From NCBI GenBank assembly GCA_019683805.1, contig JADGHQ010000016.1, positions 1-42,681 on the forward strand: a DNA stretch of 42,681 nucleotides, in the 5' to 3' direction. A program made the translations under genes and the position numbers. A model generated the notes under the pieces. It was given only the letters and a program-made list of their open reading frames with translations. It made no database searches and was not told the origin of the DNA. Source of the stretch: Thermoleophilaceae bacterium. Its GTDB lineage: Bacteria > Actinomycetota > Thermoleophilia > Solirubrobacterales > Thermoleophilaceae. Of this stretch, positions 3,980-36,341 are shown piece after piece; position 1 is the first letter of the stretch; every line of letters begins with the position of its first letter.

Positions 3980-3982
3980 GCC

Positions 3983-5039
<1,057 letters not shown>

Positions 5040-5062
<23 letters not shown>

Positions 5063-10044: not shown

Positions 10045-11004
10045 CTACTCGTAGACGGCCGGGTTCGCCACGTGCGGCGCCCGGCCGCCCGCGAGCACCG
10101 CGGCCATCCCCTCGCTCATCGCGGCGAACACCGCCCGGTTCGCCGCCGGCGTGAGCGCGAGCGCGTGCGGCGAGCAGATCACGTCGTCGCGCTCGAACAG
10201 CGGGTGCGGCTCGGGCGGCTCGCGCTCGAAGACGTCGAGCGCGACCCCGCCGAGCGCGCCGGAGACGAGCCCCTCGTACAGCACGTCGAGCGGCGCGACC
10301 GCGCCGCGGCTCACGTTCACGATCCGAAGCCCCGGGCGGGCGCGCGCGAGGAGCCTGCGCGAGACGAGCCCGCGCGTGTCGTCCGAGAGCGGCACGTGCA
10401 GGGTGAGGTGGTCCGCCCGCGCCACGGCGTCCTCCAGCGAGGCGAGCTCGACCCCGGCCTCCGCCGCCGCGGCCGCGTCGAGCGAGGGGTCGCAGACGAT
10501 CACGTGCATCCCGAGGGCGCGGGACAGCGCGGCCACGCGCCGGCCGATCGCGCCGTAGCCCGCGATCGCGATCGTGGTTCCCGCCAGATCGCCGACCCCG
10601 AGCGCGTCGCGCTCGGCCCAGCGTCCCTCGCGCACGGCCGCGTGGAGCGCCGGCAAGCGCTTCACGAGCGCGAGCAACAGCGCGATCGTCCCCTCCGCCA
10701 CGGCGTCGGCGTTCGCGCCCGGCGTGATCACGACCGGGATCCCCCTGGCGGTGGCGGCCTCGAGGTCGATGCGATCGACGCCAACGCCGGTGCGCCCGAT
10801 CACGCGCAGGCGCGGCGCGGCCTCGAGCAGGCTCGCGCTCACGACCGTCGGGCCGCGCGCCACGAGCCCGAGCGCGTCCGCGAGCAGCGGCCGCAGCGTC
10901 TCCTCGCTGTCATCCGAGGCGACGGCTATCGGGCCGAACCGGCCGAGGATCTCGGGCGCCGGCTCGGACAGCGGCCCCGCAGCCACGATCGCGGGCGAGC
11001 TCAC
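10045..11004 (-). CDS. D-isomer-specific 2-hydroxyacid dehydrogenase
   Basis: An NAD(P)-dependent 2-hydroxyacid dehydrogenase of 319 residues, the last gene of the ten-gene minus-strand operon. The Rossmann motif GYGAIG is at 149-154, followed by an acidic residue at Asp172 at the end of beta-2, which favours NAD. The catalytic triad is present: Arg233 (NVSRGA), Glu262 (FEREPP) and His280 (SPHAL). The family includes phosphoglycerate, glycerate, glyoxylate and lactate dehydrogenases. Its GTG start overlaps the aldolase stop (GTGA), so the two are translationally coupled. A likely role is to reduce a 2-oxo acid (pyruvate-like or tartronate semialdehyde-like) released by the neighbouring aldolase; this is inference from context. 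Confidence 0.88.
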   Translation of the reverse strand: MSSPAIVAAGPLSEPAPEILGRFGPIAVASDDSEETLRPLLADALGLVARGPTVVSASLLEAAPRLRVIGRTGVGVDRIDLEAATARGIPVVITPGANADAVAEGTIALLLALVKRLPALHAAVREGRWAERDALGVGDLAGTTIAIAGYGAIGRRVAALSRALGMHVIVCDPSLDAAAAAEAGVELASLEDAVARADHLTLHVPLSDDTRGLVSRRLLARARPGLRIVNVSRGAVAPLDVLYEGLVSGALGGVALDVFEREPPEPHPLFERDDVICSPHALALTPAANRAVFAAMSEGMAAVLAGGRAPHVANPAVYE

Positions 11005-11771
11005 CGCGGCGCGAGCCGGCGGGCGGCGGCCGCGACCGCGGCGGCGCCCTGCACGAGCAGCGTCGAGTCGGAGCCCACACCGATCATGCGGAACCCGTCC
11101 GCGGCCGCCGCGGGCAGCGCGCTCGCCGAGTTGACGAGGATGCCGGCGGCCTTGCCCGCCCCCTCGGCGGCGGACACGACCCGGCTCACCGCGTCGCGGA
11201 ACTCGGGCGCCTCCACCCTGCCGCGGATGCCCATCGCGTGCGAGAGGTCGCCGGGTCCGATGAAGAGCACGTCGACGCCGTCGAGCCGCGCGATCTCGGG
11301 GGCCGCGTCGACGGCCGCGGGCGACTCGATCTGCACGACGCCGAGGATGCGCTCGGCAGCCTCGTCGATCGCCTCCGGGCGTGTGCCGAAGCCGCAGGCA
11401 CGGTTGTAGGTGGCGACGCCGCGCTCGCCCTCGGGCGGGTAGCGGAGCAGCCGGATCGCGGCGCGCGCCTCCTCGACGGTGTCGAGCCGCGGGAACATCA
11501 CGCCCTCGGCGCCGAGGTCGAGCGCCCGTCCGGCCCGCGCCCGCTCCGCCGCCTCGACGCGGACGAGCGCGTGCATGCCGGCGACCGCGGCGGCGTGCAG
11601 CTGGCCGACCAGCGCCGCCTCGTGGCCGCCGCCGTGCTCGAGATCCACGAGCGCCCAGTCGAGGCCCGCCGCGCCCATCGCCTCCACCGCCAGCGGGCTG
11701 CCAAGGTTGGCGAACGCTCCCACGAGCGTCTCGCCGGCGGCCAGCCGCGCCTTCATCGAGGCAGCGCTCAT
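11001..11771 (-). CDS. HpcH/HpaI-family class II aldolase
   Basis: A 256-residue metal-dependent aldolase of the HpcH/HpaI (2-oxo-3-deoxy acid) family. Signature segments are LVDLEHGG with likely catalytic His46, VVQIESPAAV with a metal-binding Glu, and VDVLFIGPGDLSHAMG, whose Asp should be the second metal ligand. Family members split 2-oxo-3-deoxy acids to pyruvate plus an aldehyde, such as 2-dehydro-3-deoxyglucarate or 2,4-dihydroxyhept-2-enedioate. The ATG overlaps the iolD stop (ATGA), and the stop overlaps the next gene. No IolJ-type aldolase is seen in the window, so this enzyme is a candidate to act on the inositol pathway intermediate, or it serves a parallel branch. Confidence 0.87.
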   Translation of the reverse strand: MSAASMKARLAAGETLVGAFANLGSPLAVEAMGAAGLDWALVDLEHGGGHEAALVGQLHAAAVAGMHALVRVEAAERARAGRALDLGAEGVMFPRLDTVEEARAAIRLLRYPPEGERGVATYNRACGFGTRPEAIDEAAERILGVVQIESPAAVDAAPEIARLDGVDVLFIGPGDLSHAMGIRGRVEAPEFRDAVSRVVSAAEGAGKAAGILVNSASALPAAAADGFRMIGVGSDSTLLVQGAAAVAAAARRLAPR

Positions 11772-13666
11772 CCGTAGTAGCGCTGCAGCCGCTCGCGGTC
11801 GGCCTCGTATTCGGCGCGCAGCTTCCGCACCAGCTCGTCGCCGGAGACCTCGGAGGGCGCCACGTCCCACCACGCGCCCGAGCCGGGAAGGTCCACGTGC
11901 GGCACGGTCTCGGCGACGATCACCACCGGGCCGTCCAACTCGCGCGCGCGGGCGAGCGCGTCGCGGGTCTCCTCGGGCGTCGACACGCGGAACGCCGTCG
12001 CGCCGAGCCCCTCGGCGACCTTGGCGAGATCGAGCGACAGGTAGTCGCCCTCGAGGCGGCCGCCGGCGAGCGCGCCGTCGCCGCTCGCGTCACCCCTGCG
12101 CGCGCGGAACTCGTTGCCGAACTCGCGGCCCGCGCGCAGCATCTGGAGGCGGCGGATCACCTGAAATCCGTGGTTCTCCGAGATCACCAGGGTGATCTTG
12201 AGGCCCTCCTGCACCGCGGTCACGATCTCCGACGGGCTCATCAGGAAGGTGCCGTCGCCGATGAACGACACCACCTCGCCTTCGGGCTGCGCCATTCGCA
12301 CGCCGAGCGCCGCCGGCAGCTCGTAGCCCATGCACGAGTAGCCGAACTCGAGGTGGCAGGCGCGGCCGCCGGTCGCGTCCCAGACCTTGAGCAGGTCGCC
12401 GGGCGGCCCGCCGGCGGCGGCGATGATCGTGTCGCCGGCCTGCGCCGAGTCCTGCATCACGCCGATCAGACGGCCCTGGGTCATCCCGGCCTCGTGGTCG
12501 CCGTGGAGGGCGGCGTCGCGCTCCACCTCCCACCGGTCGCGCCGCTCCGACACCTCGGCGCGGTAGCGCTCCGACGGCGTGACGCCGCGCGCCGAGAGGG
12601 CCGCATCGAGAGCCCGCAGCGCCTCGCGCGCGTCGGCCACGACGGGGATCGCTCCCTGCTTGTGGGCGTCGCGGTCGCACACGTTGATCGCCGCGAAGCG
12701 CACGTCGGGGTGCTGGAACAGCGACTGCGAGGCGGTGGCGAAGTCCGTGAGGCGCGTGCCCACGCAGAGGATCACGTCCGCCTCCGCGGCGATCTGGTTG
12801 CAGGCGGGATTGCCCTCGAGGCCGAGTCCCCCGAGCCCCCACCAGGCCTGCCGGCGCACCGCGCCCTTGCCGCCGAAGGTCTCCGCCACCGGGATCCCGT
12901 GGCTCTCCGCGAGCGCCTCGAGCTCGGCCTCGGCCTCGCTGTAGATCACGCCGCCCCCGGCGATGATCAGCGGCCGCCTCGCCCCCGCGAGGAGCTCCGC
13001 GACGGCCTCGATCGAAGCCTGATCCGGGACCGGACGGCGCACCTGCCAGGTGCGCTCGGCGAAGAAGCGCTCGGGGAAGTCGTAGGCCTCCGCCTGGATG
13101 TCCTGGGGCAGCGCCAGCACGACCGCGCCGGCCTCCTCCGGGCTCGTGAGCACGCGCATCGCCTCCGGCAGCGCGGTCAGAAGCTGCTCGGGCCGGGAGA
13201 TGCGGTCGAAGAAGCGCGACACCGGCCGGAAGGCGTCGTTCACGCTCACGTCGCCGGCGAGCGGGTGCTCGAGCTGCTGCAGCACCGGGCCCTGGCGGCG
13301 CGTGGCGTAGATGTCGCCGGGCAGCAGCAGCACCGGCAGCCGGTTGATGGTGGCGAGCGCGGCGCCGGTGACCATGTTGGTGGCGCCCGGCCCGATCGAG
13401 CTCGTGCACGCAAGCGTGGCGAGCCGGCGCGACGCCTTCGCGAACGCGCTCGCGGTGTGGACCATCGACTGCTCGTTGCGGGCCTGGAGGTAGGTGAGGC
13501 CCTCACCGTGCTCCTCGAGCGCCTGGCCGACGGCGGCGACGTTGCCGTGGCCGAAGATCCCGAACATCCCCGGGACGAGCCGGCGGCGGTTGCCGTCGCG
13601 CTCCGAGTACTGGACCGACAGGTAGCGCACGATTGCCTGGGCTGTGGTCAAGCGTACGGTCGACAC
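11768..13666 (-). CDS. iolD: 3D-(3,5/4)-trihydroxycyclohexane-1,2-dione hydrolase
   Basis: A thiamine diphosphate enzyme of 632 residues that hydrolyses the cyclic dione from inositol to 5-deoxy-D-glucuronate, opening the ring. The N-terminal PYR domain carries the ThDP-activating Glu65 in YLQARNEQ. The C-terminal PP domain has GDGTFLMSPSE followed by SENHGF, the GDG-N metal and diphosphate motif. The near-N-terminal GMFGIFGHGNV segment is typical of IolD and separates it from acetolactate synthase. GTG start with AGGAGGAGA upstream. It sits with the aldehyde dehydrogenase and aldolase in the minus-strand operon, whereas the other iol genes lie 18-27 kb away on the plus strand. Confidence 0.94.
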   Translation of the reverse strand: MSTVRLTTAQAIVRYLSVQYSERDGNRRRLVPGMFGIFGHGNVAAVGQALEEHGEGLTYLQARNEQSMVHTASAFAKASRRLATLACTSSIGPGATNMVTGAALATINRLPVLLLPGDIYATRRQGPVLQQLEHPLAGDVSVNDAFRPVSRFFDRISRPEQLLTALPEAMRVLTSPEEAGAVVLALPQDIQAEAYDFPERFFAERTWQVRRPVPDQASIEAVAELLAGARRPLIIAGGGVIYSEAEAELEALAESHGIPVAETFGGKGAVRRQAWWGLGGLGLEGNPACNQIAAEADVILCVGTRLTDFATASQSLFQHPDVRFAAINVCDRDAHKQGAIPVVADAREALRALDAALSARGVTPSERYRAEVSERRDRWEVERDAALHGDHEAGMTQGRLIGVMQDSAQAGDTIIAAAGGPPGDLLKVWDATGGRACHLEFGYSCMGYELPAALGVRMAQPEGEVVSFIGDGTFLMSPSEIVTAVQEGLKITLVISENHGFQVIRRLQMLRAGREFGNEFRARRGDASGDGALAGGRLEGDYLSLDLAKVAEGLGATAFRVSTPEETRDALARARELDGPVVIVAETVPHVDLPGSGAWWDVAPSEVSGDELVRKLRAEYEADRERLQRYYG

Positions 13667-13678
13667 AGGTCTCTCCTC

Positions 13679-15106
13679 CTACGCGAGCCCGTGGATGACC
13701 ACGGTCTTCAGTTCCGTCATCTCCTCGACCGCGTAGCGCGGCCCTTCCTTGCCGATGCCCGAGCCCTTGAGGCCTCCGTACGGCATCGGGTCGGCTCGCC
13801 AGAGCGGCGTCCAGTTCACGTGCAGCGCGCCGGCGTCGACCTCGCGGACGAAGCGCATCGCCGCGGTCACGTCCTTCGTGAAGACGCCGGCCCCGAGGCC
13901 GTAGCGCGAGTCGTTCGCGACGCGGATCGCCTCGTCCACGTCCGCCACGGGCGTGACCGCGACCGCCGGGCCGAAGAGCTCATCGCGCGAGAGCGGCGCG
14001 CTCGGCGCCACTCCGTCGACGACCGCCGGGGACACCACCGCCCCGTCGCGCTCACCCCCGACGAGCACGCGCGCCCCCTCGTCCACGGCCTCGGCGATCG
14101 CGCGCTCGACGCGCTGCGCCTCGCGCTCTGAGATCAGCGATCCGATCGTGCTCGAGGCAGCGAGCGGATCGCCCGCCTCGATGGCGGCGACGCGCGGCAC
14201 GAGCGCGTCGAGGAAGTCGGCGTGAACCGCGCTCTGGACGAGGACGCGCTGCACCGAGATGCACACCTGGCCCGCGTTCACGTAGCCCCCCACCGCGATC
14301 GCCGCCGCCGCGGCCTCGAGGTCCGCGTCCGCGAGCACGAGCGTCGGACAGGTGGCGCCCAGCTCGAGCGAGAGCCGCTTCACCCCGGCCACGCGCGTGA
14401 TCGCCTCCCCCACCGGCGTCGAGCCCGTGAACGAGATCTTGCGCACGCGCGGGTCCGCGCACAGCGCCGGCCCGAGCTCGGACCCTGAGCCGGTGATCAC
14501 CGACAGCGCAAGCGGCGGCAGGCCCGCCTCGAGCAGGATCTCGCACAGCATGAGAGCGGTCAGCGGCGTGGCCTCCGCGGGCTTCAGCACGACGGCGTTC
14601 CCCGCGGCGAGCGCGGGGCCGACCTTGTGGAGCACGAGCAGCAGCGGGTAGTTGAACGGCGTGATCGCCACGACCACGCCGCAGGGCTGGCGCAGCGTGA
14701 AGCCGAGCTTGCCCTCGCCGCCCGGCGAGGCATCGAGGCTGAGCGCCTCACCCGCGGCGGCGGCGCCCTCGTGCGCGCTCACCCGCAGGATGTGGCCGGC
14801 GCGTCCCGCCTCGCCGCGAGCCTCCGCGAGCGCCTTCCCCGCCTCCGCGGCGATCGTCTGCGCGAGCTGCTCGACTCGCTCGTCGGCGATCGCCGCCGCG
14901 CGGTTCAGGATCGCGGCCCGCTCGTGCGCGGGCAGGGCACGCATCTGCCGTGCCCCCTCGACCGCCGCGGCCACGGCGCGCTCGGCGTCGGACGTGCGGG
15001 CGCGGGGCACGGTGGCGATCACCTCGCCGCTGTAGGGGTTCAGCACCTCCTGCCGCTCGGCGCCGCGCGTCCAGTCGCCCGCCAGGTGCATCTGCCGCTC
15101 GCTCAT
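13679..15106 (-). CDS. NAD(P)-dependent aldehyde dehydrogenase
   Basis: A 475-residue aldehyde dehydrogenase superfamily member. Catalytic residues are visible: Asn152 (FNYP), Glu248 (LELGATCP) and Cys282 (NAGQVCISVQR). The usual ELGG(N/K) motif reads ELGATCP, placing it among lactaldehyde, phosphonoacetaldehyde and succinate-semialdehyde dehydrogenase-like enzymes; it differs from the CoA-acylating IolA at 37.2 kb, which has LGGAKNH. It probably oxidises an aldehyde formed in the same operon, perhaps by the HpcH/HpaI aldolase. ATG overlaps the upstream isomerase stop (ATGA), and iolD follows 12 bases after its stop. Confidence 0.9.
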   Translation of the reverse strand: MSERQMHLAGDWTRGAERQEVLNPYSGEVIATVPRARTSDAERAVAAAVEGARQMRALPAHERAAILNRAAAIADERVEQLAQTIAAEAGKALAEARGEAGRAGHILRVSAHEGAAAAGEALSLDASPGGEGKLGFTLRQPCGVVVAITPFNYPLLLVLHKVGPALAAGNAVVLKPAEATPLTALMLCEILLEAGLPPLALSVITGSGSELGPALCADPRVRKISFTGSTPVGEAITRVAGVKRLSLELGATCPTLVLADADLEAAAAAIAVGGYVNAGQVCISVQRVLVQSAVHADFLDALVPRVAAIEAGDPLAASSTIGSLISEREAQRVERAIAEAVDEGARVLVGGERDGAVVSPAVVDGVAPSAPLSRDELFGPAVAVTPVADVDEAIRVANDSRYGLGAGVFTKDVTAAMRFVREVDAGALHVNWTPLWRADPMPYGGLKGSGIGKEGPRYAVEEMTELKTVVIHGLA

Positions 15107-15963
15107 CGAGCCGCCCCTCCTCCGGTAAGCGCCGCCGTCACCGCCGCGACACTCTCGCGCACGTAGATGTCGAGGGTGCGCGCCGTGGCCTCGCCCTTGT
15201 CGGGGTTGAACGGATTCGGCCCCGGCGCGGTGAACTCGAACACGAGCGGGCCGCCGTAGCCCGCGTCGCGGGCCGCCGCCACGATCGGCGCCACGTCGAG
15301 CTGGCCGTGGCCGAGCCCAAGCCGGTTCGAGTCGGCCAGGTGCAGCGCCATCAGTCGCGGCGCCGCTGCGGCCACCGCCGCGGCGCTGTCGCGCTCCTCG
15401 AGCTGCATGTGGAACGCGTCGAGGATCACGCCGGCGTTGGCGGCGCCGAGGTCCGCGGCGAAGAGAAGCGCCTGCTCGGCGGTGTTCACGAGGAAGCTCT
15501 CGTAGCGGTTGACCGCCTCCACCCCCACCGCCACACCGCGCTCGCCGGCGTAGTCGGCGACCGCCCTCGCGGCGTCGACGGCGCGCTTCCAAGACTCGGC
15601 CACGGGGCCGTCCACGCGCCCGATCGCGGCGGGGATCAGGCCGATCGCGGGCGCCCCGACCTCGCACGCGAGATCTACGCAGCCGCGGTAGTAGTCGACC
15701 GCCCGGCGCCGCGCGGCGGCGTCGGGATGCGAGAGGTCGCGCTCGTCGGTCGGCGCGGGGCAGATCGCGGTGATGCCGGTCGCCTCGATGCCCGCCTCCG
15801 CGAGCGCCGCGGCGATCCCGGCACGGTCGGCGCGGGCGGGCTCGCCCGAGATCTCGATCCCGCGGCACCCCGCGGCCGCGAGGCGCCCGAGCAGCGTGGG
15901 CAGCTCCTGCCCGGCGAAGATCCACTCGCACGCGGCGAGCACGGGTGGCTGCGCGCCCGCCAT
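15103..15963 (-). CDS. TIM-barrel sugar isomerase/epimerase (AP endonuclease 2-like)
   Basis: A 286-residue xylose-isomerase-like TIM barrel. The metal-ligand pattern of the D-tagatose/D-psicose 3-epimerase group is seen: Glu in VGVEAVNRYESF, Asp in GVILDAFHMQLEE, His in LMALHLADSNR, and Glu in LVFEFTAPG near the C-terminus. Such enzymes interconvert ketoses at C3, and IolI (2-keto-myo-inositol isomerase) belongs to the same superfamily. In this operon, inosose isomerisation or ketose epimerisation are both plausible. It follows the ABC permease genes after 40 bases and overlaps the aldehyde dehydrogenase start. Confidence 0.85.
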   Translation of the reverse strand: MAGAQPPVLAACEWIFAGQELPTLLGRLAAAGCRGIEISGEPARADRAGIAAALAEAGIEATGITAICPAPTDERDLSHPDAAARRRAVDYYRGCVDLACEVGAPAIGLIPAAIGRVDGPVAESWKRAVDAARAVADYAGERGVAVGVEAVNRYESFLVNTAEQALLFAADLGAANAGVILDAFHMQLEERDSAAAVAAAAPRLMALHLADSNRLGLGHGQLDVAPIVAAARDAGYGGPLVFEFTAPGPNPFNPDKGEATARTLDIYVRESVAAVTAALTGGGAAR

Positions 15964-16003: not shown

Positions 16004-16834
16004 TCACTTGACGGCCCCGAACGTCAGACCGCGCACGAAGTGCCGCTGGACGATGATCGCGAAGATCATGATGGGCAGGGCGCCCACGACTCCCGCCGCC
16101 GCCATCGGGCCCCACTCGATCTGGATCTTGCCGATCAGCGTCGAGACGCCCACGGGCACCGTCTGCGCGGCCGGCGTCGAGGTGAGCGTGAGCGCCAGCA
16201 GGAAGTCGTTGTAGGTCGTGATCACGCTGAAGATCGCGGTGGCCGCGATCCCCGGCGCGGCGAGCGGCAGCACCACGCGGAAGAGGGCGCGCAGGCGCGA
16301 GTCGCCGTCGACCATCGCCGCCTCCTCGATGTCCTTGGGGATCTCCTCGAGGAAGCTCTGCATCATCCAGATGACGAAGCTCGTGTTGAGGCCCCCGTAG
16401 ATGACGATCAGGCCGAGCCGCGTGTTCAGCAGCCCGTACTTCGTGAGCGTGAGGTAGAGCGGGATCACGAGCAGGATCGGCGGCAGCGTGCGCACGAGCA
16501 GCGCGGCCACGAGCGCCGACTGGTTGAGCCCGAAGCGCAGGCGGAAGCGGGCGAGCGCGTAGGCCGCGAGGGTGCCGAGCACGAGGCTCACCGCCACCGA
16601 GACCGTCACCACGATCAGGCTGTTCACGAGGAACGAGCCCATGTGGTAGTCGCCGAACAGCCTCGAGTAGTTGTCGCCCGTCGGGTGCTGCGGCACGAGC
16701 GACACGCCGCGGAAGATGTCGACGGGCTGCTTGAGCGACGTCACGAGCATCCACCAGAAGGGGAAGAGCGCGACGACGATCGCGACGCCGAGGACGGCGA
16801 CCCGCGCGACTGCGAGGGCGCGTTCGCGGCTCAC
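16004..16834 (-). CDS. Carbohydrate ABC transporter permease (MalG/UgpE type)
   Basis: Inner-membrane permease of a CUT1-type sugar importer, 276 residues with six hydrophobic segments. The cytoplasmic EAA loop that docks to the ATPase is clear (EEAAMVDGDSRLRALFRVVLP), and the C-terminal RHFVRGLTFGAVK ending is typical of MalG-like proteins. The GTG at 16834 is preferred because it overlaps the stop of the partner permease (GTGA). Together with the three genes upstream it forms a complete binding-protein-dependent importer, presumably for an inositol-like substrate given the downstream enzymes. Confidence 0.93.
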   Translation of the reverse strand: MSRERALAVARVAVLGVAIVVALFPFWWMLVTSLKQPVDIFRGVSLVPQHPTGDNYSRLFGDYHMGSFLVNSLIVVTVSVAVSLVLGTLAAYALARFRLRFGLNQSALVAALLVRTLPPILLVIPLYLTLTKYGLLNTRLGLIVIYGGLNTSFVIWMMQSFLEEIPKDIEEAAMVDGDSRLRALFRVVLPLAAPGIAATAIFSVITTYNDFLLALTLTSTPAAQTVPVGVSTLIGKIQIEWGPMAAAGVVGALPIMIFAIIVQRHFVRGLTFGAVK

Positions 16835-17757
16835 GACGACGTCCTCGCGGCCGCGTTCCGCATCAGCTTGATCGCGACGATCGTGAGCAGCAGAACCAGC
16901 ACGAGCAGCGACACGACCATCGCCATGCCGCGGCCGTACTGCGTGAACTGGAACGCCGTGTTGTACGAGTAGGTGCTGATCAGCTGCGTGGCCGTGCCCG
17001 GCCCGCCCTTCGTCAGCACGAAGATCTGGTCGAAGGTCCCGACGGCGTCGATCAGGCGCAGCACGACCGCGACCATCAGCACCGGCCGCAGCAGCGGCAG
17101 CGTGTGGTCGAAGAAGACGCGCACGGGGCCCGCGCCGTCCACGCGCGCGGCCTCGATCGGCTCCTGCGGCAGCGACTGGAGCCCCGCGAGGATGATCAGG
17201 AAGAGCAGCGGCGTCCACTCCCACACGTCCACGGCGACCACCCCGAGGAAGGCGCTGCCGGGGTTCGCCAGCACGTTCGGCTTGCCGAGGCCGAGCGCCG
17301 AGAAGAGCGGGTTCACGACGCCGATGTCGGACGCGTACATGAGCCGCCAGATCACGCCGACCACCACCGGGGCGACGGTCATCGGCAACACCAGGCTGAC
17401 GCGGATGAAGCGGCTGAAGCGGAGCTGGCTCGCCACGAGCAGCGCGAGCCCGAGGCCCAGCAGCGTCTCGATCGAGACGGCCAGGGCGACGTACTTGGCC
17501 GTGGTTCCGAGCGCCGTCCAGAACGTGTGGTCTTCGAAGATGGCGCGGTAGTTCTCGAGACCGGCCGAGCCCACATCCCGCCCGTAGCGGTAGGCGTGGA
17601 AGCTCGCCCTGACGCCGTAGATCAGCGGGTACGCCGCAACGGCCGCAAGCGCGATCGCCGCGGGCGCCAGCAGCAGCCACGGGCTGGCGAGAAGCCTTGC
17701 CCAGAGCTCGCTGCCGCGGCGCCCGCGGGCGGGAACGGCTACGGACGAAGTTCCCAT
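16831..17757 (-). CDS. Carbohydrate ABC transporter permease (MalF/UgpA type)
   Basis: Partner permease of 308 residues with six hydrophobic segments, beginning with the helix SPWLLLAPAAIALAAVAAYP. The EAA loop reads IEAARVDGAGPVRVFFDHTLP. Length and layout match UgpA-like permeases without the large MalF periplasmic insert. It lies 24 bases downstream of the binding-protein gene and overlaps the second permease, so they form one unit. Confidence 0.93.
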   Translation of the reverse strand: MGTSSVAVPARGRRGSELWARLLASPWLLLAPAAIALAAVAAYPLIYGVRASFHAYRYGRDVGSAGLENYRAIFEDHTFWTALGTTAKYVALAVSIETLLGLGLALLVASQLRFSRFIRVSLVLPMTVAPVVVGVIWRLMYASDIGVVNPLFSALGLGKPNVLANPGSAFLGVVAVDVWEWTPLLFLIILAGLQSLPQEPIEAARVDGAGPVRVFFDHTLPLLRPVLMVAVVLRLIDAVGTFDQIFVLTKGGPGTATQLISTYSYNTAFQFTQYGRGMAMVVSLLVLVLLLTIVAIKLMRNAAARTSS

Positions 17758-17781
17758 CGATCGCGCTCGTCCGGATCCGGC

Positions 17782-19179
17782 CTAGACGTAACCGCCCTGC
17801 TGCTTGATGAACTGCGCGATCTCGTTCGCGGCCTTCGTGAGGTGCGACTTCGCGATCGCGGTGTAGCCGCTCTTCTTCTGGATGGCCTCGACCAGCGCCT
17901 GGTTCAGGTGCGTGCCGAGGATGTCCTCGAACTTCGGCTCGTCCGGCGTCTTCGGCTTCGGCACGGAGTTGTTCACCGCGTCGGCGATGGCCGGCAGCCA
18001 GCGGAAGTCCTTCACGGCCTGCGGGTCGGTCAGCGCCGACTTCGTGACGGCCGCGCTGCCGTCGCCGCGGGCGAAGTCCCTCTGGATCTCGCTCGAGGTG
18101 AACCACTCGAGGAACCGCTTAGCACCCTCGGGGTTCTGCGCGCCCGACGCGATGCCACAGACGAAGGTGCCGATCGCCGGCCCGCTCTTCTCCTGCGTGG
18201 GCGTGGCGGCCATCTTGATCTTGCCGACCACCTGCGAGGACTTCCTGTCGTCCACGCGGTGCACGAGCCCCGTGTACTCGGTGAGGGCCATGCACTTGCC
18301 CTGGAGCAGCACCTGCGTCTCCTGGTCGGTGTCGAACTCGGCGACTCCGGCGGGCATGTACGGGATGAAGCTCATCAGCCGCTCGAGGGCGCCGACGCCC
18401 TCGGGGCCGGCGAACCCCGGCGACCAGTCCTCGCGCACGAACTCGCCGCCGTAGGAGTTGAGCAGCGGCAGGTACGTCATCACGATCGGGTTGCCCTTGA
18501 CCCCGCGCGCGGACCAGCCGTAGAGCTTCGGCGGCTTGGCCTTCGACTTCATCGCGGAGTAGACGTCGTCCCAGGTCTTGGGCGCCTCGTCGAAGTAGTC
18601 GGCGTGGTAGTAGAGGAGCTCGACGTCGTCGATGATCACGATCGCGTAGAGCGCCGGATCGTCGTTCGCGAAGTCCTTCAGGCGGGGACCGCTCTTCGGC
18701 GGCCAGTAGCCCTGCTCGAGGCCCTTCGGGAGGATGTCCGGGTTCACCTTGAACCCGATCTCGTCGAGGTTCTGGATGATGTTGCTGGCCGCGAACTCGG
18801 GCACCCAGTTGTCGTCCATGACGTAGATGTCGTAGGCGCCGGTCTTGTTCAGGCCGTCGTTCTTGGCGTTCTGGTACCAGGCGTCGTAGCTCGTCTCGTT
18901 GTACTTGACCTTGATCCCGGTCTCCTTCTCGAAGCGCTTGATGAAGGTGTCCCGGAACGGCGCCATGGCGTTGTCCTGGAAGGAGCCGATGGTGATGCTG
19001 CCGCCCGCGCTCTTCGAGCCCGAGGTGACAGCGCTGCTCTTGCTGGAGCCCCCGCATGCCGCGAGGAAGCCCGCGCCGAAGAGGCCTGCCGCGCCGATCG
19101 CGCCGCGCTCGATGACCTTCCTGCGCGTGAGCCGTCCCCCCAGGGAGTCCCGGCGGAACGCATCGTTGGGTTTCGTCAT
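17782..19179 (-). CDS. Extracellular solute-binding lipoprotein, family 1
   Basis: Substrate-binding protein of the carbohydrate importer, 465 residues. The N-terminus has a twin-arginine motif (TRRKV, Arg19-Arg20), a hydrophobic stretch and a lipobox FLAAC with Cys42, followed by a Ser/Gly-rich linker: a Tat-type lipoprotein signal. The mature part follows family 1 binding proteins (ITIGSFQDNAMAPFRDTFIKRFEKETG). ATG start with AGGAGGGAG upstream. Its genomic neighbours are IolD and isomerases, so a cyclitol or uronic-acid-like sugar is the expected ligand; sequence alone does not show the ligand. Confidence 0.92.
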   Translation of the reverse strand: MTKPNDAFRRDSLGGRLTRRKVIERGAIGAAGLFGAGFLAACGGSSKSSAVTSGSKSAGGSITIGSFQDNAMAPFRDTFIKRFEKETGIKVKYNETSYDAWYQNAKNDGLNKTGAYDIYVMDDNWVPEFAASNIIQNLDEIGFKVNPDILPKGLEQGYWPPKSGPRLKDFANDDPALYAIVIIDDVELLYYHADYFDEAPKTWDDVYSAMKSKAKPPKLYGWSARGVKGNPIVMTYLPLLNSYGGEFVREDWSPGFAGPEGVGALERLMSFIPYMPAGVAEFDTDQETQVLLQGKCMALTEYTGLVHRVDDRKSSQVVGKIKMAATPTQEKSGPAIGTFVCGIASGAQNPEGAKRFLEWFTSSEIQRDFARGDGSAAVTKSALTDPQAVKDFRWLPAIADAVNNSVPKPKTPDEPKFEDILGTHLNQALVEAIQKKSGYTAIAKSHLTKAANEIAQFIKQQGGYV

Positions 19180-19202
19180 TCCACTCCCTCCTAGTCCCCC
19201 GG

Positions 19203-20309
19203 TCAGATGCCGGCGGTTGCCGCGTGTCCGGCGCTCGACGCGCCGCGTTCTCCGGGCTTGGCGAGCGCTTCGCCCGAGTCCTTGTCGAACAGGTGCACCC
19301 GTCCCTCCGCAGGTCGCACCGCGCAGCGCTCACCGACCGGCCGATCGAAGCCGGCGTGAGCGCGGATGTTCAGGAGCTCGTCCTCGAGGCGCACCGTCAC
19401 GAGCGTCTCGTTGCCGAGCGGCTCGACGACGTAGATCTCGCCGGCGAGGCTGTCCGGCGCGCCGTGATCGGTGACCTCCGCATGCTCGGGGCGGAACCCG
19501 AGCTTCACCGGCCCGCGGATCTCGGCGCCCGGGAGGGGGATCGAGCCGGTGGGGTGGCGGAAGCTGCCGTCCTCGACGGCGCCGTCGAGGACGTTCATCG
19601 GCGGGGATCCGCAGAAGCGCGCGACGAAGAGGTTGGCCGGGCGCTCGTAGAGCTCCGCGGGCGTGGCGAGCTGCTGGAGCGCGCCGTCGCGCATCACGGC
19701 GATCAGGTCGGCCATCGTCATGGCCTCGATCTGATCGTGGGTCACGTAGAGGGTCGTGACGCCGAGCTCACGCTGCAGGCGCTTGATCTCGACGCGCATC
19801 TGCAGGCGAAGCTGCGCGTCGAGGTTCGAGAGCGGCTCGTCCATGAGGAACGCGTGCGGGCGGCGGACGATCGCGCGCGCGAGCGCCACGCGCTGGCGCT
19901 GCCCGCCCGAGAGCTCGCGTGGCATGCGTCCAAGCAGCCCGCCGATGCCGAGGAGCTCGGCGACCCTGCGGACCCGCTCGTCGCGCTCCGCCGCCGCGCT
20001 GCGGCGAAGCCTCAGCGGGTAGGCGATGTTCTCCGCGACGCTCTTGTGCGGGTAGAGCGCGTAGCTCTGGAACACCATCGCCACGTCCCGATGGCGCGGC
20101 TCGAGCCTCGTGACGTCCCGGTCGCCGATGTAGATCCGTCCGGACGTCGGCTGCTCGAGGCCGGCGAGCAGGCGCAGGGCGGTCGTCTTCCCGCACCCCG
20201 ACGGGCCGAGCATGGCGAGGAACTTGCCGTCCGGCACGGTGAGGTCGAGCGGCGCCAGCGCCTGGGTCGAGCCGAAGCTCTTCGACGCTCTCTCGTATCT
20301 GACGTCCAT
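19203..20309 (-). CDS. Sugar ABC transporter ATP-binding protein (MalK/UgpC type)
   Basis: Cytoplasmic ATPase of the importer, 368 residues. Walker A GPSGCGKTT is at 35-43, the signature LSGGQ at 133-137, Walker B AFLMDEP around 153-159, and the switch His follows in YVTHDQ. The C-terminal 130 residues have the MalK-like regulatory (TOBE/OB) extension with KLGFRPEHAEV. ATG at 20309 is chosen because GGAGGAG lies at the correct distance and the Walker A spacing is normal. The gene lies between the isomerase and the binding-protein gene with gaps of 16 and 23 bases. Confidence 0.94.
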   Translation of the reverse strand: MDVRYERASKSFGSTQALAPLDLTVPDGKFLAMLGPSGCGKTTALRLLAGLEQPTSGRIYIGDRDVTRLEPRHRDVAMVFQSYALYPHKSVAENIAYPLRLRRSAAAERDERVRRVAELLGIGGLLGRMPRELSGGQRQRVALARAIVRRPHAFLMDEPLSNLDAQLRLQMRVEIKRLQRELGVTTLYVTHDQIEAMTMADLIAVMRDGALQQLATPAELYERPANLFVARFCGSPPMNVLDGAVEDGSFRHPTGSIPLPGAEIRGPVKLGFRPEHAEVTDHGAPDSLAGEIYVVEPLGNETLVTVRLEDELLNIRAHAGFDRPVGERCAVRPAEGRVHLFDKDSGEALAKPGERGASSAGHAATAGI

Positions 20310-20325: not shown

Positions 20326-21291
20326 TCAGCTTCTGGCGTGGCCTGGCACGGTCGCTTCCATTGCCGCCTGCAAGCCCTCGAGCGAGGCCTCGATGCCCTG
20401 CTCGGGCGTGAGCGTCGGATCCTCGTGCTCGATCGAGACCGGACCGTCGTAGCCCACTGCGCGCAGGACGGCGAGCAGCTCGCGCCACTCCTCGAGCGGG
20501 CGCCCGCGGCCGACGGCGCAGAAGTGCCAGGGCATCGTGTCGGCATCCGCGGGCCAGCGGAAGTCGAGGACGCCGTGGAGCGCCACGCGCTCGGGATGGA
20601 CAATCGTGTCCTTGCCGTGGACGAAGCCGACGCTGTCGCCGAGCCTGCGAGCCGTCGTGACCGGGTCGATGCCCTGCCACCAGAAGTGGCTCGGGTCGAG
20701 GTTGACCTTCACGTTCTCGCCGGTGACCTCGCGCAGCTGCTCGAACGAGGCGGCGTTGTAGATCGACGTGCCCGGGTGCAGCTCGAGGCAGATGTCGACC
20801 CCGGGCGCCGCTTCCACCGCGAAGCGGGAGAGCTCGCGCCAGTAGGGCGCGATCGCCTGCTCCCACTGCCAGTCCCAGAGGTTCTCCATGTCGGGGAGCC
20901 AGGCGCCGCCGGCGAACACGGGCCATCCGCCGCCGCCGGGACCGCCCGGACAGCCGCTCATCGCCACGATGCGCGGCACCCCGAGGGCCGCCGCGAGCTC
21001 GAGGGCTCCACGGAGCGCCCGGCCGTGCGCCTGCGCCGTGGCGGCGTCAGGGTGAAGCGGGTTGCCCGATGCGTTCAGCGCGACGAGCTCGATGCCGTGC
21101 GCGTCCAGGAGCTCGAGCAGGCGCCGGCGCTCGGCGTCGCTCGACAACAGACCCTCCAGGTCGAGGTGCGGGGCGGGCGAGTAACCGCCGACGCCGAGCT
21201 CGACGCCGGTGATGCCGCGCTGCGCGCACCACGCCAACGCCTCCTCCAGCGGGCGGTCCTCGAGCGCGTCGGTCAGGAGGGCGATCGTCAT
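20326..21291 (-). CDS. TIM-barrel sugar phosphate isomerase/epimerase, first gene of operon
   Basis: A 321-residue xylose-isomerase-like TIM barrel. Likely metal-site segments are ICLELHPGTS (Glu, His), VNLDPSHFWWQ (Asp, His), VGFVHGKD (His) and VSIEHEDP (Glu). It is clearly paralogous to the protein at 28797-29795: both share GNPLHPD, FAGGAWLPD-EN, DWQWE, LELHPGT, DPSHF-WQ-D and IEHEDP. The exact reaction is unknown. ATG 21291 is chosen because the upstream extension would run through the twin operator; the Shine-Dalgarno sequence is poor. It is the first gene of the ten-gene operon and is followed by the ABC transporter. Confidence 0.87.
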   Translation of the reverse strand: MTIALLTDALEDRPLEEALAWCAQRGITGVELGVGGYSPAPHLDLEGLLSSDAERRRLLELLDAHGIELVALNASGNPLHPDAATAQAHGRALRGALELAAALGVPRIVAMSGCPGGPGGGGWPVFAGGAWLPDMENLWDWQWEQAIAPYWRELSRFAVEAAPGVDICLELHPGTSIYNAASFEQLREVTGENVKVNLDPSHFWWQGIDPVTTARRLGDSVGFVHGKDTIVHPERVALHGVLDFRWPADADTMPWHFCAVGRGRPLEEWRELLAVLRAVGYDGPVSIEHEDPTLTPEQGIEASLEGLQAAMEATVPGHARS

Positions 21292-21307
21292 CTGGTGGGT
21301 CAAGCGA

Positions 21308-21319
21308 TGGAAGGTTCCA
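21308..21319. promoter_or_regulatory. LacI-type operator copy 1
   Basis: TGGAAGGTTCCA, matching the window-wide consensus TGGAACGTTCCA except at one central base. It lies between the putative promoter and start codon of the minus-strand isomerase/ABC/iolD operon. Confidence 0.75.
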
Positions 21320-21329
21320 TCCTGCGTAC

Positions 21330-21341
21330 TGGAACCTTCCA
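21330..21341. promoter_or_regulatory. LacI-type operator copy 2
   Basis: TGGAACCTTCCA, the exact reverse complement of copy 1, with its centre 22 bp away (two helical turns). It covers the position where the -10 element of the minus-strand promoter is expected. Confidence 0.75.
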
Positions 21342-21356
21342 CAAACACGATCTCGT

Positions 21357-21442: not shown

Positions 21443-21456
21443 GGCGCCGGCGGTGG

Positions 21457-28749: not shown

Positions 28750-28761
28750 TGGAATGTTCCA
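28750..28761. promoter_or_regulatory. LacI-type operator copy 3
   Basis: TGGAATGTTCCA, one base from consensus. It lies just downstream of the Pot-operon promoter, at about +4 to +15, and upstream of the AGGAG site. Confidence 0.8.
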
Positions 28762-29830: not shown

Positions 29831-29842
29831 TGGAGCGTTCCA
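29831..29842. promoter_or_regulatory. LacI-type operator copy 4
   Basis: TGGAGCGTTCCA, one base from consensus, at about +7 to +18 of the isomerase transcript. Confidence 0.8.
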
Positions 29843-31102: not shown

Positions 31103-31112
31103 CCCGCATCGT

Positions 31113-31124
31113 TGGAACGTTCCA
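31113..31124. promoter_or_regulatory. LacI-type operator copy 6 (perfect palindrome)
   Basis: TGGAACGTTCCA, the only fully symmetrical copy and so the probable strongest site. It lies at about +5 to +16 of the inositol operon transcript. Confidence 0.85.
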
Positions 31125-31177
31125 TCGCCGGCCCCGGATGGCCGGCGGCTCGACCGGGTATCTCAGGAGGACCGCGA

Positions 31178-32320
31178 TTGGAAACGCCCAAGCGCGTCGG
31201 CATCATCGGCTGCGGCCTGATCGCACAGGTCATGCATCTGCCCTATCTCGCGGAGCTGAGCGACCGCTTTGAGATCGCGGCGCTCTGCGACGTCTCGGAC
31301 GACGTGGTCCGGGCGTGCGCGGAGCGCTACGGGGTGGAGCGCACCTTCACGCGCTGGGAGGACCTACTCGAGGCGCCGCTCGACGCGGTGATGGTGCTGA
31401 TCTCCGGCAACCACGCCCCGATGGCGATCGCCGCGGCGCAGAAGGGCATCCACGTCTTCGTGGAGAAGCCGATGGCCATCTCGGCCGCGCAGTGCACGGA
31501 GATGATCGAGGCCGCGGAGGCCGGCGGCGTCCGCCTCATGGTCGGCACGATGAAGCGCTACGACCCGGCGTACGAGCGCTTCGTGAAGCTCGTGCCGGAG
31601 GTGTCCGATCTGCGCCTCGTGCGGGTCGAGACGCTCGAGTCGCCGCTCGAGCCCTACGTGGCCCACTACCCGCTCGTGCGCCCCGCCTCGCCGCCCCCGG
31701 CGGATCTCGTGGCGCGGTGGCAGGCCGAGGAGAAGCCGCACATCGACGGCGCGCTCGACGGGGACAGCGACGAGACGAACCGCTCCGTGTACCGCAACGT
31801 CCTGCTCGACAACCTCGTGCACGAGTTCAACATGCTGCGCGGCGCGCTCGGCGAGCCGACGGCGGTGACCTACGCGAGCCTCACCCCCAGGTGCGCAGCC
31901 GTGCACCTGCGCTTCGGCGACGCGGAGTGCCACCTCTCCTGGGTCGACCTGCCGGGCATCGCGCGCTACAAGCAGGAGGTCGCGCTGTACGGGCCGGACC
32001 AGCGGCTCGTGCTCACCCTGCCGTCGCCCTTCCTGCGCAGCGCTCCCACACGCCTGACGCGCGAGGGCGGCGAGCCCGGCACCACCCACTCCTGGGAGGT
32101 CCAGGAGGTCGTCGCGTACGACGAGGCGTTCAAGCGCGAGCTCATCGAGTTCCACGAGGCGATCGTGAGCGGCCGCGAGCCCCGGACCTCGGGCGTCGAC
32201 GGCCTGCGCGACCTGCTCCTCTGCGAGGCGGTCGCGCGCGTCCACCGAACCGGCGCGCCGGTCACCAACCCAACCGAACTGCCCGCGGCGCTTGCTGCCC
32301 GCGGAGGAGGAAGCAGATGA
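31178..32320 (+). CDS. Gfo/Idh/MocA-family oxidoreductase 1
   Basis: A 380-residue NAD(P)-dependent oxidoreductase, first gene of the inositol operon. The N-terminal Rossmann motif is VGIIGCGLIA, the family signature FVEKPMA carries the conserved Lys, and the C-terminal alpha/beta domain includes a likely substrate-site segment NLVHEFNMLRGALG. The family oxidises inositol, inososes, glucose and related polyols. The TTG start at 31178 is chosen for its AGGAGG 7 bases upstream and because the Rossmann strand starts six residues later; an ATG further upstream would lie on the operator. Its stop overlaps the IolE-like gene start (ATGA). Confidence 0.88.
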   Translation: METPKRVGIIGCGLIAQVMHLPYLAELSDRFEIAALCDVSDDVVRACAERYGVERTFTRWEDLLEAPLDAVMVLISGNHAPMAIAAAQKGIHVFVEKPMAISAAQCTEMIEAAEAGGVRLMVGTMKRYDPAYERFVKLVPEVSDLRLVRVETLESPLEPYVAHYPLVRPASPPPADLVARWQAEEKPHIDGALDGDSDETNRSVYRNVLLDNLVHEFNMLRGALGEPTAVTYASLTPRCAAVHLRFGDAECHLSWVDLPGIARYKQEVALYGPDQRLVLTLPSPFLRSAPTRLTREGGEPGTTHSWEVQEVVAYDEAFKRELIEFHEAIVSGREPRTSGVDGLRDLLLCEAVARVHRTGAPVTNPTELPAALAARGGGSR

Positions 32321-33273
32321 CGCAGGAAATCGGCGGGGAGCTCCCCCGCGAGCACGGCGCCGGCCCGGTCGTCGTCGCCAACGCGCCGGTCAGCTACGGG
32401 GCGTTCGAGATCACGGTCGGCTCCTATCCCAACGTCCCGGACCCGATCACGTTGCTCGACGCCGTGGCGAGCGCGGGCTACGAGGGCATCGACCTCGGGC
32501 CGGTCGGCTACCTCGGCACAGGCGAGGAGCTCGCCGAGCGTCTCGGTAGCCGCAACCTGTCGCTCGCCGGCGGCTACCTCGGGCTCCCCTTCAGCGAGCC
32601 GGAGCGACTCGCGGAGGAGCTCCCCTCGCTCGACGCCCTGCTCGACGTCTTCGACTCGGTGCCGGACGGACGCGTCAAGGCCCGCCCCACGCTCGCCGAC
32701 GCGGGCTCCCCGGAGCGCGCCGCGTACCCCGGCCGGGCCGCGCTCGATCACAGCGTCGGGCTCGACGAGAAGGGCTGGAGGAACTTCGCGGACGGTCTCG
32801 CCCGCGCGGTCGAGCGCTGCCGCGAGCGCGGCTACGAGCCCACCTTCCACCACCACACCGCCACCTACATCGAGGCGATGTGGGAGATCGAGCGGCTGCT
32901 CGAGCTGAGCGACGTGGGCGTGACGCTCGACACCGGGCATCTGCTGCTCGGGCGAGGCGACCCGGTGAAGGCAGTCCGCGACTGGCGGGAACGCATCAAC
33001 CACGTTCACCTCAAGGACGCCCGCCAGGACGTACTCGACGCGATCGTGGCCGACCGCGCGCCGGTGATGGACATCTGGACGCGCAAGGCGTTCTGCCGCT
33101 TCGGCGAGGGCGACGTGGCGATCGACGAGGTGCTCGCCGCGCTGCGCGACATCGGCTACAGCGGCTGGCTCGTGGTCGAGCAGGACATGATCCCGCGGGA
33201 GGACGAGCCGGTGGAGCTGGCGGCGGCCGAGCAGGCGCAGAACCGCGAGTACCTGCGCGAGAGGGGCCTCTAG
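32317..33273 (+). CDS. iolE: Inosose dehydratase-like protein (IolE family)
   Basis: A 318-residue TIM-barrel protein. The start VVVANAPVSYGAFE and GYEGIDLGPVGYLG follow the IolE/MocC pattern. Metal-site segments include TFHHHTATYIE, VTLDTGHLLLG, INHVHLKDAR and WLVVEQDM. IolE dehydrates scyllo-inosose to 3D-(3,5/4)-trihydroxycyclohexane-1,2-dione, the substrate of IolD. GGAGGAGG stands 6 bases before the ATG. The assignment is by motif and operon position; another isomerase role is possible as there are three other xylose-isomerase-like proteins in the window. Confidence 0.82.
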   Translation: MTQEIGGELPREHGAGPVVVANAPVSYGAFEITVGSYPNVPDPITLLDAVASAGYEGIDLGPVGYLGTGEELAERLGSRNLSLAGGYLGLPFSEPERLAEELPSLDALLDVFDSVPDGRVKARPTLADAGSPERAAYPGRAALDHSVGLDEKGWRNFADGLARAVERCRERGYEPTFHHHTATYIEAMWEIERLLELSDVGVTLDTGHLLLGRGDPVKAVRDWRERINHVHLKDARQDVLDAIVADRAPVMDIWTRKAFCRFGEGDVAIDEVLAALRDIGYSGWLVVEQDMIPREDEPVELAAAEQAQNREYLRERGL

Positions 33274-33276
33274 GCG

Positions 33277-34236
33277 ATGGGTACCGAAGCGGTACGCGTC
33301 GCCGTGATCGGCGCCGGCCGCATGGGGCGGGTCCACGTCTCCGCGCTCTCCGGGAGCCGCAACGCCGAGCCCGTCGCGGTCGTCGATCCCGTGGCCGAGG
33401 CCCGCGAGCAGGCCGCCGCGGGCGGCCTCGCCGCCTACGCGAGCCTCGAGGAGCTGCTGTCGGCGGGCGGCTTCGACGCGGTCCTGGTCGCCGCGCCGTC
33501 GGACCTCCACCTGAGCCTGGTCCGGGAGCTGGCCGCCGCCCGCGTGCCGATGCTCTGCGAGAAGCCGTGCGGCATGAGCGCCGACGAGGCGCGCGCGGCC
33601 GCGCGCGCGGCGGAGGAGACGGGAACGCTCCTCCAGATCGGCTACTGGCGCCGCTTCGTGCCGGAGCTCGTCTCGCTTCGCGAGCGCATCGCCCGCGGCG
33701 ACCTTGGGGAGATAGCGCTCGTGGCCTCGCACCAGTGGGACCGGTTCCCGCCGTCGCCCGAGTTCAGGGCGCACAGCGGCGGCATCGCCGTCGACATGGC
33801 CGTGCACGAGCTCGACCAGGTGCGCTGGCTGCTCGGCCAGGAGATCGAGAGCGTGGTGGCGATGGCTGCCGGCCGCTCCGAGCCGGGCCACGCCCCCTCC
33901 GATCCGGACGCCGCCGTGGCCCTGGCGCGGCTGTCCGGCGGCACCACCGCGAACATCACCCTCGGCCGTCGCTTCGGGCAGGCGGACTCGTGCTGGATCG
34001 AGGTCTTCGGCAGCGAGGCGTACGAGCGCTGCACGTTCATGTGGGCGGCCGACAGCGAGCGGGCCTTCCTCGCAGGGCTAACCGCGCAGGCGGACGCGTT
34101 CGCGGAAGCGGTTCGCGGCGGCTCTCTCGCCGGCGCAGCCCCTGAGGACGCGGTGGCGGCGCTGTCCGCCGCAGAGCGCATAGCGGAGGCGCTCGAGCAG
34201 GCTGAGGAGTCAGAGCTAGCAGGGAGGTCGGCATGA
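33277..34236 (+). CDS. iolG: Inositol 2-dehydrogenase-like oxidoreductase (IolG family)
   Basis: A 319-residue Gfo/Idh/MocA protein. The Rossmann motif is VAVIGAGRMGRVH, the family motif LCEKPCG has the catalytic Lys, and YWRRFVPE with DMAVHELDQVRWLLG matches the Asp-x3-His segment of inositol dehydrogenases. IolG oxidises myo-inositol to scyllo-inosose with NAD. Of the three family members in the operon this one looks most like classical IolG. It starts 3 bases after the iolE stop and overlaps the next gene by 4. Confidence 0.83.
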   Translation: MGTEAVRVAVIGAGRMGRVHVSALSGSRNAEPVAVVDPVAEAREQAAAGGLAAYASLEELLSAGGFDAVLVAAPSDLHLSLVRELAAARVPMLCEKPCGMSADEARAAARAAEETGTLLQIGYWRRFVPELVSLRERIARGDLGEIALVASHQWDRFPPSPEFRAHSGGIAVDMAVHELDQVRWLLGQEIESVVAMAAGRSEPGHAPSDPDAAVALARLSGGTTANITLGRRFGQADSCWIEVFGSEAYERCTFMWAADSERAFLAGLTAQADAFAEAVRGGSLAGAAPEDAVAALSAAERIAEALEQAEESELAGRSA

Positions 34237-35384: not shown

Positions 35385-36341
35385 ATGGCGGCGTTCGACG
35401 TGATCACGACGGGGCGGGTCGGCGTCGACCTCTACCCGCAGCAGTCCGGCGTGAGCCTCGCCGAGGTCGAGTCGTTCGCGAAGTACCTCGGCGGCAGCGC
35501 GACGAACGTCGCCGTGCAGGCGGCGCTGCTCGGAAGCAGGAGCGCCGTCGTCACCAAGGTCGGCGACGACCCGTTCGGCCCGTTCGTGCGCGGCGCGCTC
35601 GAGCGCTTCGGCGTCGACCCCCGCTGGGTCGGCACCGACCCGACCCTGCGCACGCCGATCGTCTTCTGCGAGATCCACCCGCCCGACCACTTCCCGCTGC
35701 TCTTCTACCGTGAGCCCAAGGCTCCGGACATGAACCTCACCCCCGAGGACTTCGACCTCGACTCCGTCCGGGAGGCAAAGGTGTTCTGGACCACGGGCAC
35801 CGGCCTCTCGGACGAGCCGAGTCGGAGCACCGTGCTCCAGATGCTCGAGGAGCGGGGGCGCTCGGGGGTCACGATCCACGACCTCGACCACCGGCCGATG
35901 TTCTGGCGCGACGAGTCCGAGGCGACGCGCTGGGCGCGCGAGGCCCTCCGGCACGTGACGGTCGCGGTCGGCAACCGGGACGAGGTGGAGGTGGCGGTCG
36001 GGACGCGCGACCCCGATCGGGCCGCGGAGGCGCTGCTCGATCTCGGCGTCGAGCTCGCGATCGTGAAGAAGGGCCCCGAGGGAGTGCTCGCGCGCACGGC
36101 CGACGAGCGCGTCGAGCTCCCACCCATCCGGCTCGAGGTCGTGAACGGGCTCGGGGCCGGCGACGCCTTCGGCGGCACGCTCGCGCACGGGCTCGCGCAC
36201 GGCTGGGATCTCGAGCGCACGATCCGCGCCGCCAACGCGGCCGGCGCGATCTCCGCCTCGCGGCTCGCGTGCGCCGACGACTTCCCCACGCTCCCAGAGA
36301 TCGAAGAGGTGCTGTCCCGAAAGGAATCCGCTCGTGCCTGA
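35385..36341 (+). CDS. iolC: 5-dehydro-2-deoxygluconokinase (PfkB family)
   Basis: A 318-residue ribokinase-like kinase that phosphorylates 5-dehydro-2-deoxy-D-gluconate at O6. The N-terminal PfkB signature is GGSATNVAVQAALLG, and the C-terminal signature NGLGAGDAFGG holds the catalytic Asp260. Segments FPLLFYREPKAPDMNL and DLDHRPMFWRDE are IolC-like. The length is that of a stand-alone kinase; there is no C-terminal DUF2090 aldolase-like extension as found fused to some IolC proteins. It starts 3 bases after the previous stop and overlaps iolB by 8 bases. Confidence 0.92.
   Translation: MAAFDVITTGRVGVDLYPQQSGVSLAEVESFAKYLGGSATNVAVQAALLGSRSAVVTKVGDDPFGPFVRGALERFGVDPRWVGTDPTLRTPIVFCEIHPPDHFPLLFYREPKAPDMNLTPEDFDLDSVREAKVFWTTGTGLSDEPSRSTVLQMLEERGRSGVTIHDLDHRPMFWRDESEATRWAREALRHVTVAVGNRDEVEVAVGTRDPDRAAEALLDLGVELAIVKKGPEGVLARTADERVELPPIRLEVVNGLGAGDAFGGTLAHGLAHGWDLERTIRAANAAGAISASRLACADDFPTLPEIEEVLSRKESARA

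Follow-up and report, generated by a model that had tools for sequence, protein, structure and literature searches.

Results

The window examined here is positions 1 to 42,681 of contig JADGHQ010000016.1 (C67 of genome G000) from the Thermoleophilaceae bacterium assembly GCA_019683805.1, which comprises 2.56 Mb in 134 contigs and is 95% complete. Its minus strand carries a gene for an HpcH/HpaI class II aldolase (hereafter HpcH; 11001..11771, 256 amino acids, PF03328, 119 bits), set between iolD (11768..13666, TIGR04377, 815 bits against a cut-off of 715) and the gene for a D-isomer-specific 2-hydroxyacid dehydrogenase (2HADH; 10045..11004, PF02826/PF00389), a putative 5-deoxyglucarate 2-dehydrogenase. 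An aldehyde dehydrogenase (AldDH; 13679..15106, PF00171), a putative 5-deoxyglucuronate dehydrogenase, is encoded upstream of iolD and completes a four-gene cassette. As proposed from the letters of the window alone (the sequence-only reading), hpcH is coupled to both of its neighbours, with start–stop overlaps of ATGA (iolD/hpcH) and GTGA (hpcH/2HADH), and AldDH lies upstream across a gap of 12 bases to iolD. This IolD is the only one above cut-off in the genome and belongs to a clade that a deep split sets apart from canonical IolD. The 2HADH is nearest to PGDH/glyoxylate reductase, with a probable 2-ketogluconate reductase among its solved relatives. The nearest model of the AldDH is lactaldehyde dehydrogenase, with a score below cut-off, and its identity across other cassettes is 65-72%.

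The cassette forms the downstream end of a longer minus-strand operon. This begins at about 21294 with an IolE-like TIM barrel (20326..21294, TIGR04379, 40 bits against a cut-off of 290) and continues with an ATP-binding cassette (ABC) sugar transporter in the same direction (16004..20309), consisting of two permeases, a binding protein (17782-19179) and an ATPase whose start was set by eye. A TIM-barrel sugar epimerase/isomerase follows (15103..15963, PF01261, nearest to ketose 3-epimerases); it overlaps the AldDH gene by ATGA, and no counterpart of it was found in other cassettes.

The remaining iol genes lie further along the window. On the plus strand, three Gfo/Idh/MocA dehydrogenase genes (starting at 31112, 33277 and 34233) and an IolE-like gene (32317-33273) fill 31112..35381 as iolG/iolE homologues and are followed by iolC (35385..36341, TIGR04382, 370 bits, cut-off 300) and iolB (36334..37146, TIGR04378, 338 bits, cut-off 205). 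Beyond them, on the minus strand, is an iolA-type (methyl)malonate-semialdehyde dehydrogenase gene (37195..38712, TIGR01722, 560 bits, cut-off 448.5). The sequence-only reading had listed IolG, IolE, IolD, IolB, IolC and IolA as all present. The last four clear their curated NCBIfam cut-offs, whereas IolG and IolE are represented only by homologues below theirs (best 190/355 and 147/290 bits). A second operon for a transporter and additional IolE-like genes are also present in the window.

A shared putative operator joins these transcription units. Allowing at most one mismatch, the window contains six matches to the palindrome TGGAANNTTCCA, where 0.08 would be expected. Two putative copies of TGGAANNTTCCA (21308..21341) are found upstream of the HpcH operon, and single copies likewise upstream of the IolE-like gene 28797-29843 (TGGAGCGTTCCA, 29831..29842), of iolG/E/C/B (TGGAACGTTCCA, 31113..31124) and of the second ABC transporter operon (TGGAATGTTCCA, 28750..28761). 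The sixth, which has a single mismatch (TGGAACACTCCA, 38771..38782), lies between iolA and a divergently oriented alcohol dehydrogenase gene; all are given on the plus strand. Several copies fall inside first-pass open reading frames whose true starts, judged by eye, are likely further downstream; the start of the IolE-like gene 20326..21294 was shifted in this way to lie downstream of both operators. These shared sites tie the HpcH operon to iolG-E-C-B and iolA, in support of the single regulon that had been proposed. In a set of 137 loci totalling 1.03 Mb, almost all of which come from other genomes, the exact motif is found only once, between iolA and AldDH at the cassette of Amycolatopsis echigonensis. 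A one-mismatch copy lies 159 bases from it, and the two 12-mers are identical to the window sites TGGAGCGTTCCA and TGGAACGTTCCA. Another palindrome upstream of iolG, GGACTGNNTCCAGTCC, was considered as a shared site and discarded, being present at one place only. The window encodes three LacI-family regulators (21209-23619 and 29911-31026), of which two lie in tandem; they are candidate binders of TGGAANNTTCCA.

The absence of IolJ noted in the window extends to the whole genome. No match to the IolJ family PF01116 was found in the 2.56 Mb, a search for which 11 of 14 control genomes were positive; at 95% completeness an unsampled gene is possible. PF01116 is likewise absent from most relatives in the same family, and the genome gave no match to Cgl0159 (PF22649) or to DeoC/LacD (PF01791). 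IolC is a PfkB kinase of 318 amino acids without the C-terminal DUF2090 domain, as the sequence-only reading had stated. A stand-alone DUF2090 protein is, however, encoded on contig C80 (L001:1480-2406, G000:C80:2259-3152, minus strand; PF09863, 101 bits). Its residues Lys121, Glu160 and Lys207 are invariant across 36 homologues, so that the Lys/Glu catalytic pair is kept. Mutant fitness data led to the proposal that DUF2090 is the aldolase acting on 2-deoxy-5-keto-gluconate 6-phosphate (PMC9007349). In three relatives (G054, G138 and G077) iolA or iolB has a stand-alone DUF2090 gene next to it, and in others Cgl0159 is placed in the iol cluster. In the DUF2090 tree, the C80 protein falls in a clade of copies from many relatives without IolD, separated by a branch of 1.39 from the iol-clustered copies, which weakens its case as an iol-dedicated aldolase; no operator copy was found at its locus. 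Across relatives, the distributions of DUF2090 and the class II aldolase are not cleanly complementary, some genomes having both and some neither. The C80 protein may be the fructose-1,6-bisphosphate aldolase of this lineage, the genome having given no match to PF01116 or PF01791.

HpcH itself belongs to none of the named subfamilies at equivalog level, scoring 181/369, 172/393 and 115/441 bits against HpaI, GarL and RhmA. Its catalytic residues H46, R71, D85, E149 and D175 are conserved (His45, Arg70, Asp84, Glu149 and Asp175 of Escherichia coli HpaI). Arg95, a residue that E. coli HpaI lacks, is common to the cassette copies, the GarL-like copies and three of four more distant HpcH copies. 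A search of 84,980 genomes with an alignment of the HpcH proteins of three cassettes returned ten relatives of HpcH, four of them at loci with iolD. Beside the others, an enolase-superfamily dehydratase is found at L122 and L128 and a GarR-like reductase at L123, L124 and L128; L126 has equivalents of these neighbours matched by blast, and among the genes inspected at L129 there is neither. By gene neighbourhood, then, the closest relatives outside the cassette appear to sit in contexts of aldarate-type 2-oxo-dicarboxylate cleavage. Neither HpcH nor an IolD of this clade turned up in plasmid records, where identity peaked at 42% and 51%, respectively.

The AldDH-IolD-HpcH-2HADH cassette recurs across Actinomycetota, namely in G144 and G173 (Solirubrobacterales, the order to which the window genome also belongs) and in Amycolatopsis echigonensis, as well as in a Chloroflexi metagenome-assembled genome, its genes being 48-72% identical. 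The iolD-hpcH adjacency is also found at a contig end in Thermomonosporaceae. Thus IolD lies directly upstream of HpcH at four loci of the scan (G173, the Chloroflexi genome, A. echigonensis and Thermomonosporaceae), or at six when the window and G144 are included. At the Amycolatopsis locus the cassette is accompanied by an IolE homologue, by an IolG that clears the cut-off for inositol 2-dehydrogenase (392/355) and by an adjacent, divergent methylmalonate-semialdehyde dehydrogenase (698/448.5); there is no iolB or iolC at this locus. G173 carries a canonical iolA-B-C-D cluster and a second iolB beside Cgl0159 in addition to its cassette.

In the IolD tree, all six cassette IolDs group with six of the seven tested IolDs from IolB-less genomes (branch 0.53, support 100/100), split from most IolDs of iolB/iolC clusters. 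Among relatives, 8 of this clade's 12 loci, the window included, have a 2HADH within about 10 kb, versus 0 of 15 canonical loci (p = 2e-4, an optimistic value because related loci are not independent).

No IolB was found genome-wide in the IolD-positive genomes G144, G064, G037, G085, G160, G081, G115, G116, G151 and G188 of the order. A 2HADH is encoded near IolD in the first seven, five of which have HpcH as well. G160, G081, G037, G085 and G064 carry an IolD of the same clade beside 2HADH (variant clusters L110, L111, L112, L108 and L114), and four of these five have a distant HpcH (28-38% identity), none being detected in G081. The variant neighbourhoods contain regulators of the GntR type, and from one to another they differ in holding an SMP-30 lactonase, a short-chain dehydrogenase or a histidinol-dehydrogenase-like protein. 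Judging from these gene contents, the dehydrogenase and lactonase could provide an alternative C1-aldehyde oxidation, consistent with the model discussed below. In G064, a 3-dehydroquinate-synthase-like gene (L114:7377-8588) adjoins IolD and 2HADH and is possibly involved in cyclitol metabolism.

Outside these clusters, the window holds a class III aminotransferase gene (8613-9980) and, upstream of it, cydABDC-like genes (2591-8455), which from sequence only comprise a cytochrome bd oxidase-like set and two ABC exporter subunits.

Discussion

The position of HpcH in the operon, the IolD clade to which its partner belongs and the recurrence of the cassette, which is complete in the single-contig, IolB-less genome G144, indicate that HpcH very probably closes a branch separate from the canonical path. 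As to the specific chemistry, we lean towards an oxidative, phosphorylation-free cyclitol branch, most likely for inositol, that diverges from the main path at IolD and has HpcH as its last enzyme. 5-Deoxy-D-glucuronate is the known product of IolD. After ring opening to this compound, AldDH would oxidise its C1 to give 5-deoxy-D-glucarate, whose C2 has the D configuration used by D-2-hydroxyacid dehydrogenases. 2HADH would then oxidise the C2 alcohol to 2-keto-5-deoxyglucarate, that is (3S,4R)-3,4-dihydroxy-2-oxohexanedioate, a configuration deduced manually from that of 5-deoxyglucuronate, which is xylo. A retro-aldol cleavage between C3 and C4 by HpcH would release hydroxypyruvate and malonate semialdehyde, the latter being converted by IolA to acetyl-CoA. 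IolB, IolC and IolJ would all be bypassed, and in the window genome the phosphorylated IolB-IolC route would coexist with the branch under the same operator. The second branch suggested by the sequence-only reading is thus well supported as a separate branch, with hydroxypyruvate and malonate semialdehyde as its likely products in place of the pyruvate and aldehyde first suggested.

In this scheme, both position and predicted stereochemistry fit known enzymes. HpcH/HpaI aldolases accept hydroxypyruvate with an exclusively 3S outcome, and one GarL yields the 3S,4R product (PMC7610986), which matches the predicted intermediate. Malonate semialdehyde provides a further link, as IolA is its dehydrogenase and is encoded under the same operator in the window and adjacent to the cassette, in divergent orientation, in Amycolatopsis. 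In the open-access literature we found nothing relevant on 5-deoxyglucarate, on non-phosphorylative inositol routes or on IolD together with a 2-hydroxyacid dehydrogenase. A more tentative proposal, to which we give a little less than an even chance, is that Solirubrobacterales, Pseudonocardiaceae, Thermomonosporaceae and Chloroflexota share this undescribed branch, that it is able to stand in for IolB, IolC and IolJ entirely, and that other IolB-less genomes use variants of it with a more distant HpcH and with AldDH replaced by a short-chain dehydrogenase, a lactonase or a histidinol-dehydrogenase-like protein.

Every reaction of the cassette is inferred, and several observations weigh against the oxidative inositol branch. 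The full cassette is rare, with iolD beside only four of the ten HpcH relatives. iolB is present elsewhere in the genomes of all four scan-found carriers. The nearest relatives of the window IolD, G091 and G054b (support 91/93), sit with iolB/iolC and have no HpcH. Lastly, the cassettes of G144 and G173 include a glycoside hydrolase family 4 (GH4) glycosidase, a hint of a glycoside substrate.

The main rival, which remains so because of the iolB genes elsewhere in the four carriers, is a separate branch for another cyclitol, such as an inositol isomer, an amino- or O-methyl-cyclitol or an inositol glycoside. IolD would open a different diketone, and HpcH would release pyruvate or hydroxypyruvate together with a different aldehyde. 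The deep split of the IolD tree, the coexistence of the cassette with canonical iol genes in several genomes, the glycosidase in two cassettes with an SIS isomerase in one, and the window's second transporter operon and additional IolE-like genes all suit this explanation. We nevertheless consider it rather unlikely: the operon of the window's sole above-cut-off IolD shares its operators with iolB, iolC and iolA, the sister IolDs adjoin iolB/iolC, which suggests that this clade still makes the substrate of IolB, and the Amycolatopsis cassette has beside it an IolG that passes its cut-off. The GH4 genes of G144 and G173 and the SIS-domain isomerase gene of G173 (L106:6535-7881, L107:13848-15191 and L121:2094-3275) are in themselves a hint of an inositol glycoside or amino compound.

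Two further explanations concern the missing IolJ step. The stand-alone C80 DUF2090 protein could act as a class I aldolase that completes the IolC branch and leaves the canonical pathway without a gap, which is compatible with a separate branch through HpcH. Its conserved residues, the proposed activity of its family, the iol-adjoining copies in relatives and the lack of any other candidate among the families sought in the genome make it most likely the best candidate aldolase for the IolC branch, if there is any. That it actually plays this part is conceivable and somewhat doubtful, as its clade comes from IolD-less relatives, its locus bears no operator and it may be a housekeeping sugar-phosphate aldolase. 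The gap that the sequence-only reading saw at this step is therefore less secure than it appeared, without being closed. The other explanation, that HpcH itself cleaves 2-deoxy-5-keto-gluconate 6-phosphate in place of IolJ, was also raised by that reading; the window regulon contains no other aldolase, hpcH is coupled to iolD and the genome lacks IolJ. The IolJ substrate, however, carries a 5-keto group and yields dihydroxyacetone phosphate. HpcH/HpaI enzymes hold a 2-oxo acid on the metal (PMC8560999), and since the IolJ substrate is none, HpcH is an improbable substitute. The cassette is also present in IolB-less G144, where the known route would not yield this substrate, relatives fill the step with clustered DUF2090 or Cgl0159, and G173 carries both a canonical cluster and the cassette. 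On chemistry and distribution we set this replacement aside as having very little chance of being correct.

Comparison with known systems places the proposed oxidative branch between several pathways. The Bacillus-type IolG-E-D-B-C-J-A pathway shares with the window its IolD, IolB, IolC and IolA-type enzymes, here under one operator, but the window genome lacks IolJ and has AldDH, 2HADH and HpcH coupled to an IolD of another clade. The IolC-DUF2090 fusion (Price et al. 2022, PMC9007349) is a known solution without IolJ, and DUF2090 is present here, as are iol-clustered stand-alone copies in relatives; here, however, it is unfused, on another contig and of a non-iol clade. With GarL/HpaI aldolases (PF03328), HpcH has in common its family, its catalytic residues and a probable 2-oxo-dicarboxylate substrate, and its nearest relatives lie in GarL-like contexts. 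It differs in its neighbours, which are IolD, AldDH and 2HADH rather than an enolase-family dehydratase and GarR, and in the proposed product, hydroxypyruvate instead of pyruvate. As in the Weimberg and Dahms pathways, an aldehyde would be oxidised to a sugar acid before cleavage and no kinase would be needed, whereas the start would be a ring-opened cyclitol and the C2 alcohol would be oxidised instead of a dehydration taking place.

If this branch is real, it would constitute a second exit from inositol that requires no ATP, IolB or IolJ, and annotating every genome with IolD as a canonical or incomplete inositol user would be wrong for this group. Surveys that demand three of iolB, C, D and E per cluster (PMC9430895) would miss or misread the IolB-less genomes. 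As a product of the branch, hydroxypyruvate would be an uncommon point of entry. Activity of HpcH/HpaI enzymes on hydroxypyruvate is familiar mainly from biocatalysis work, and the cassette would give these hydroxypyruvate-accepting aldolases a natural role.

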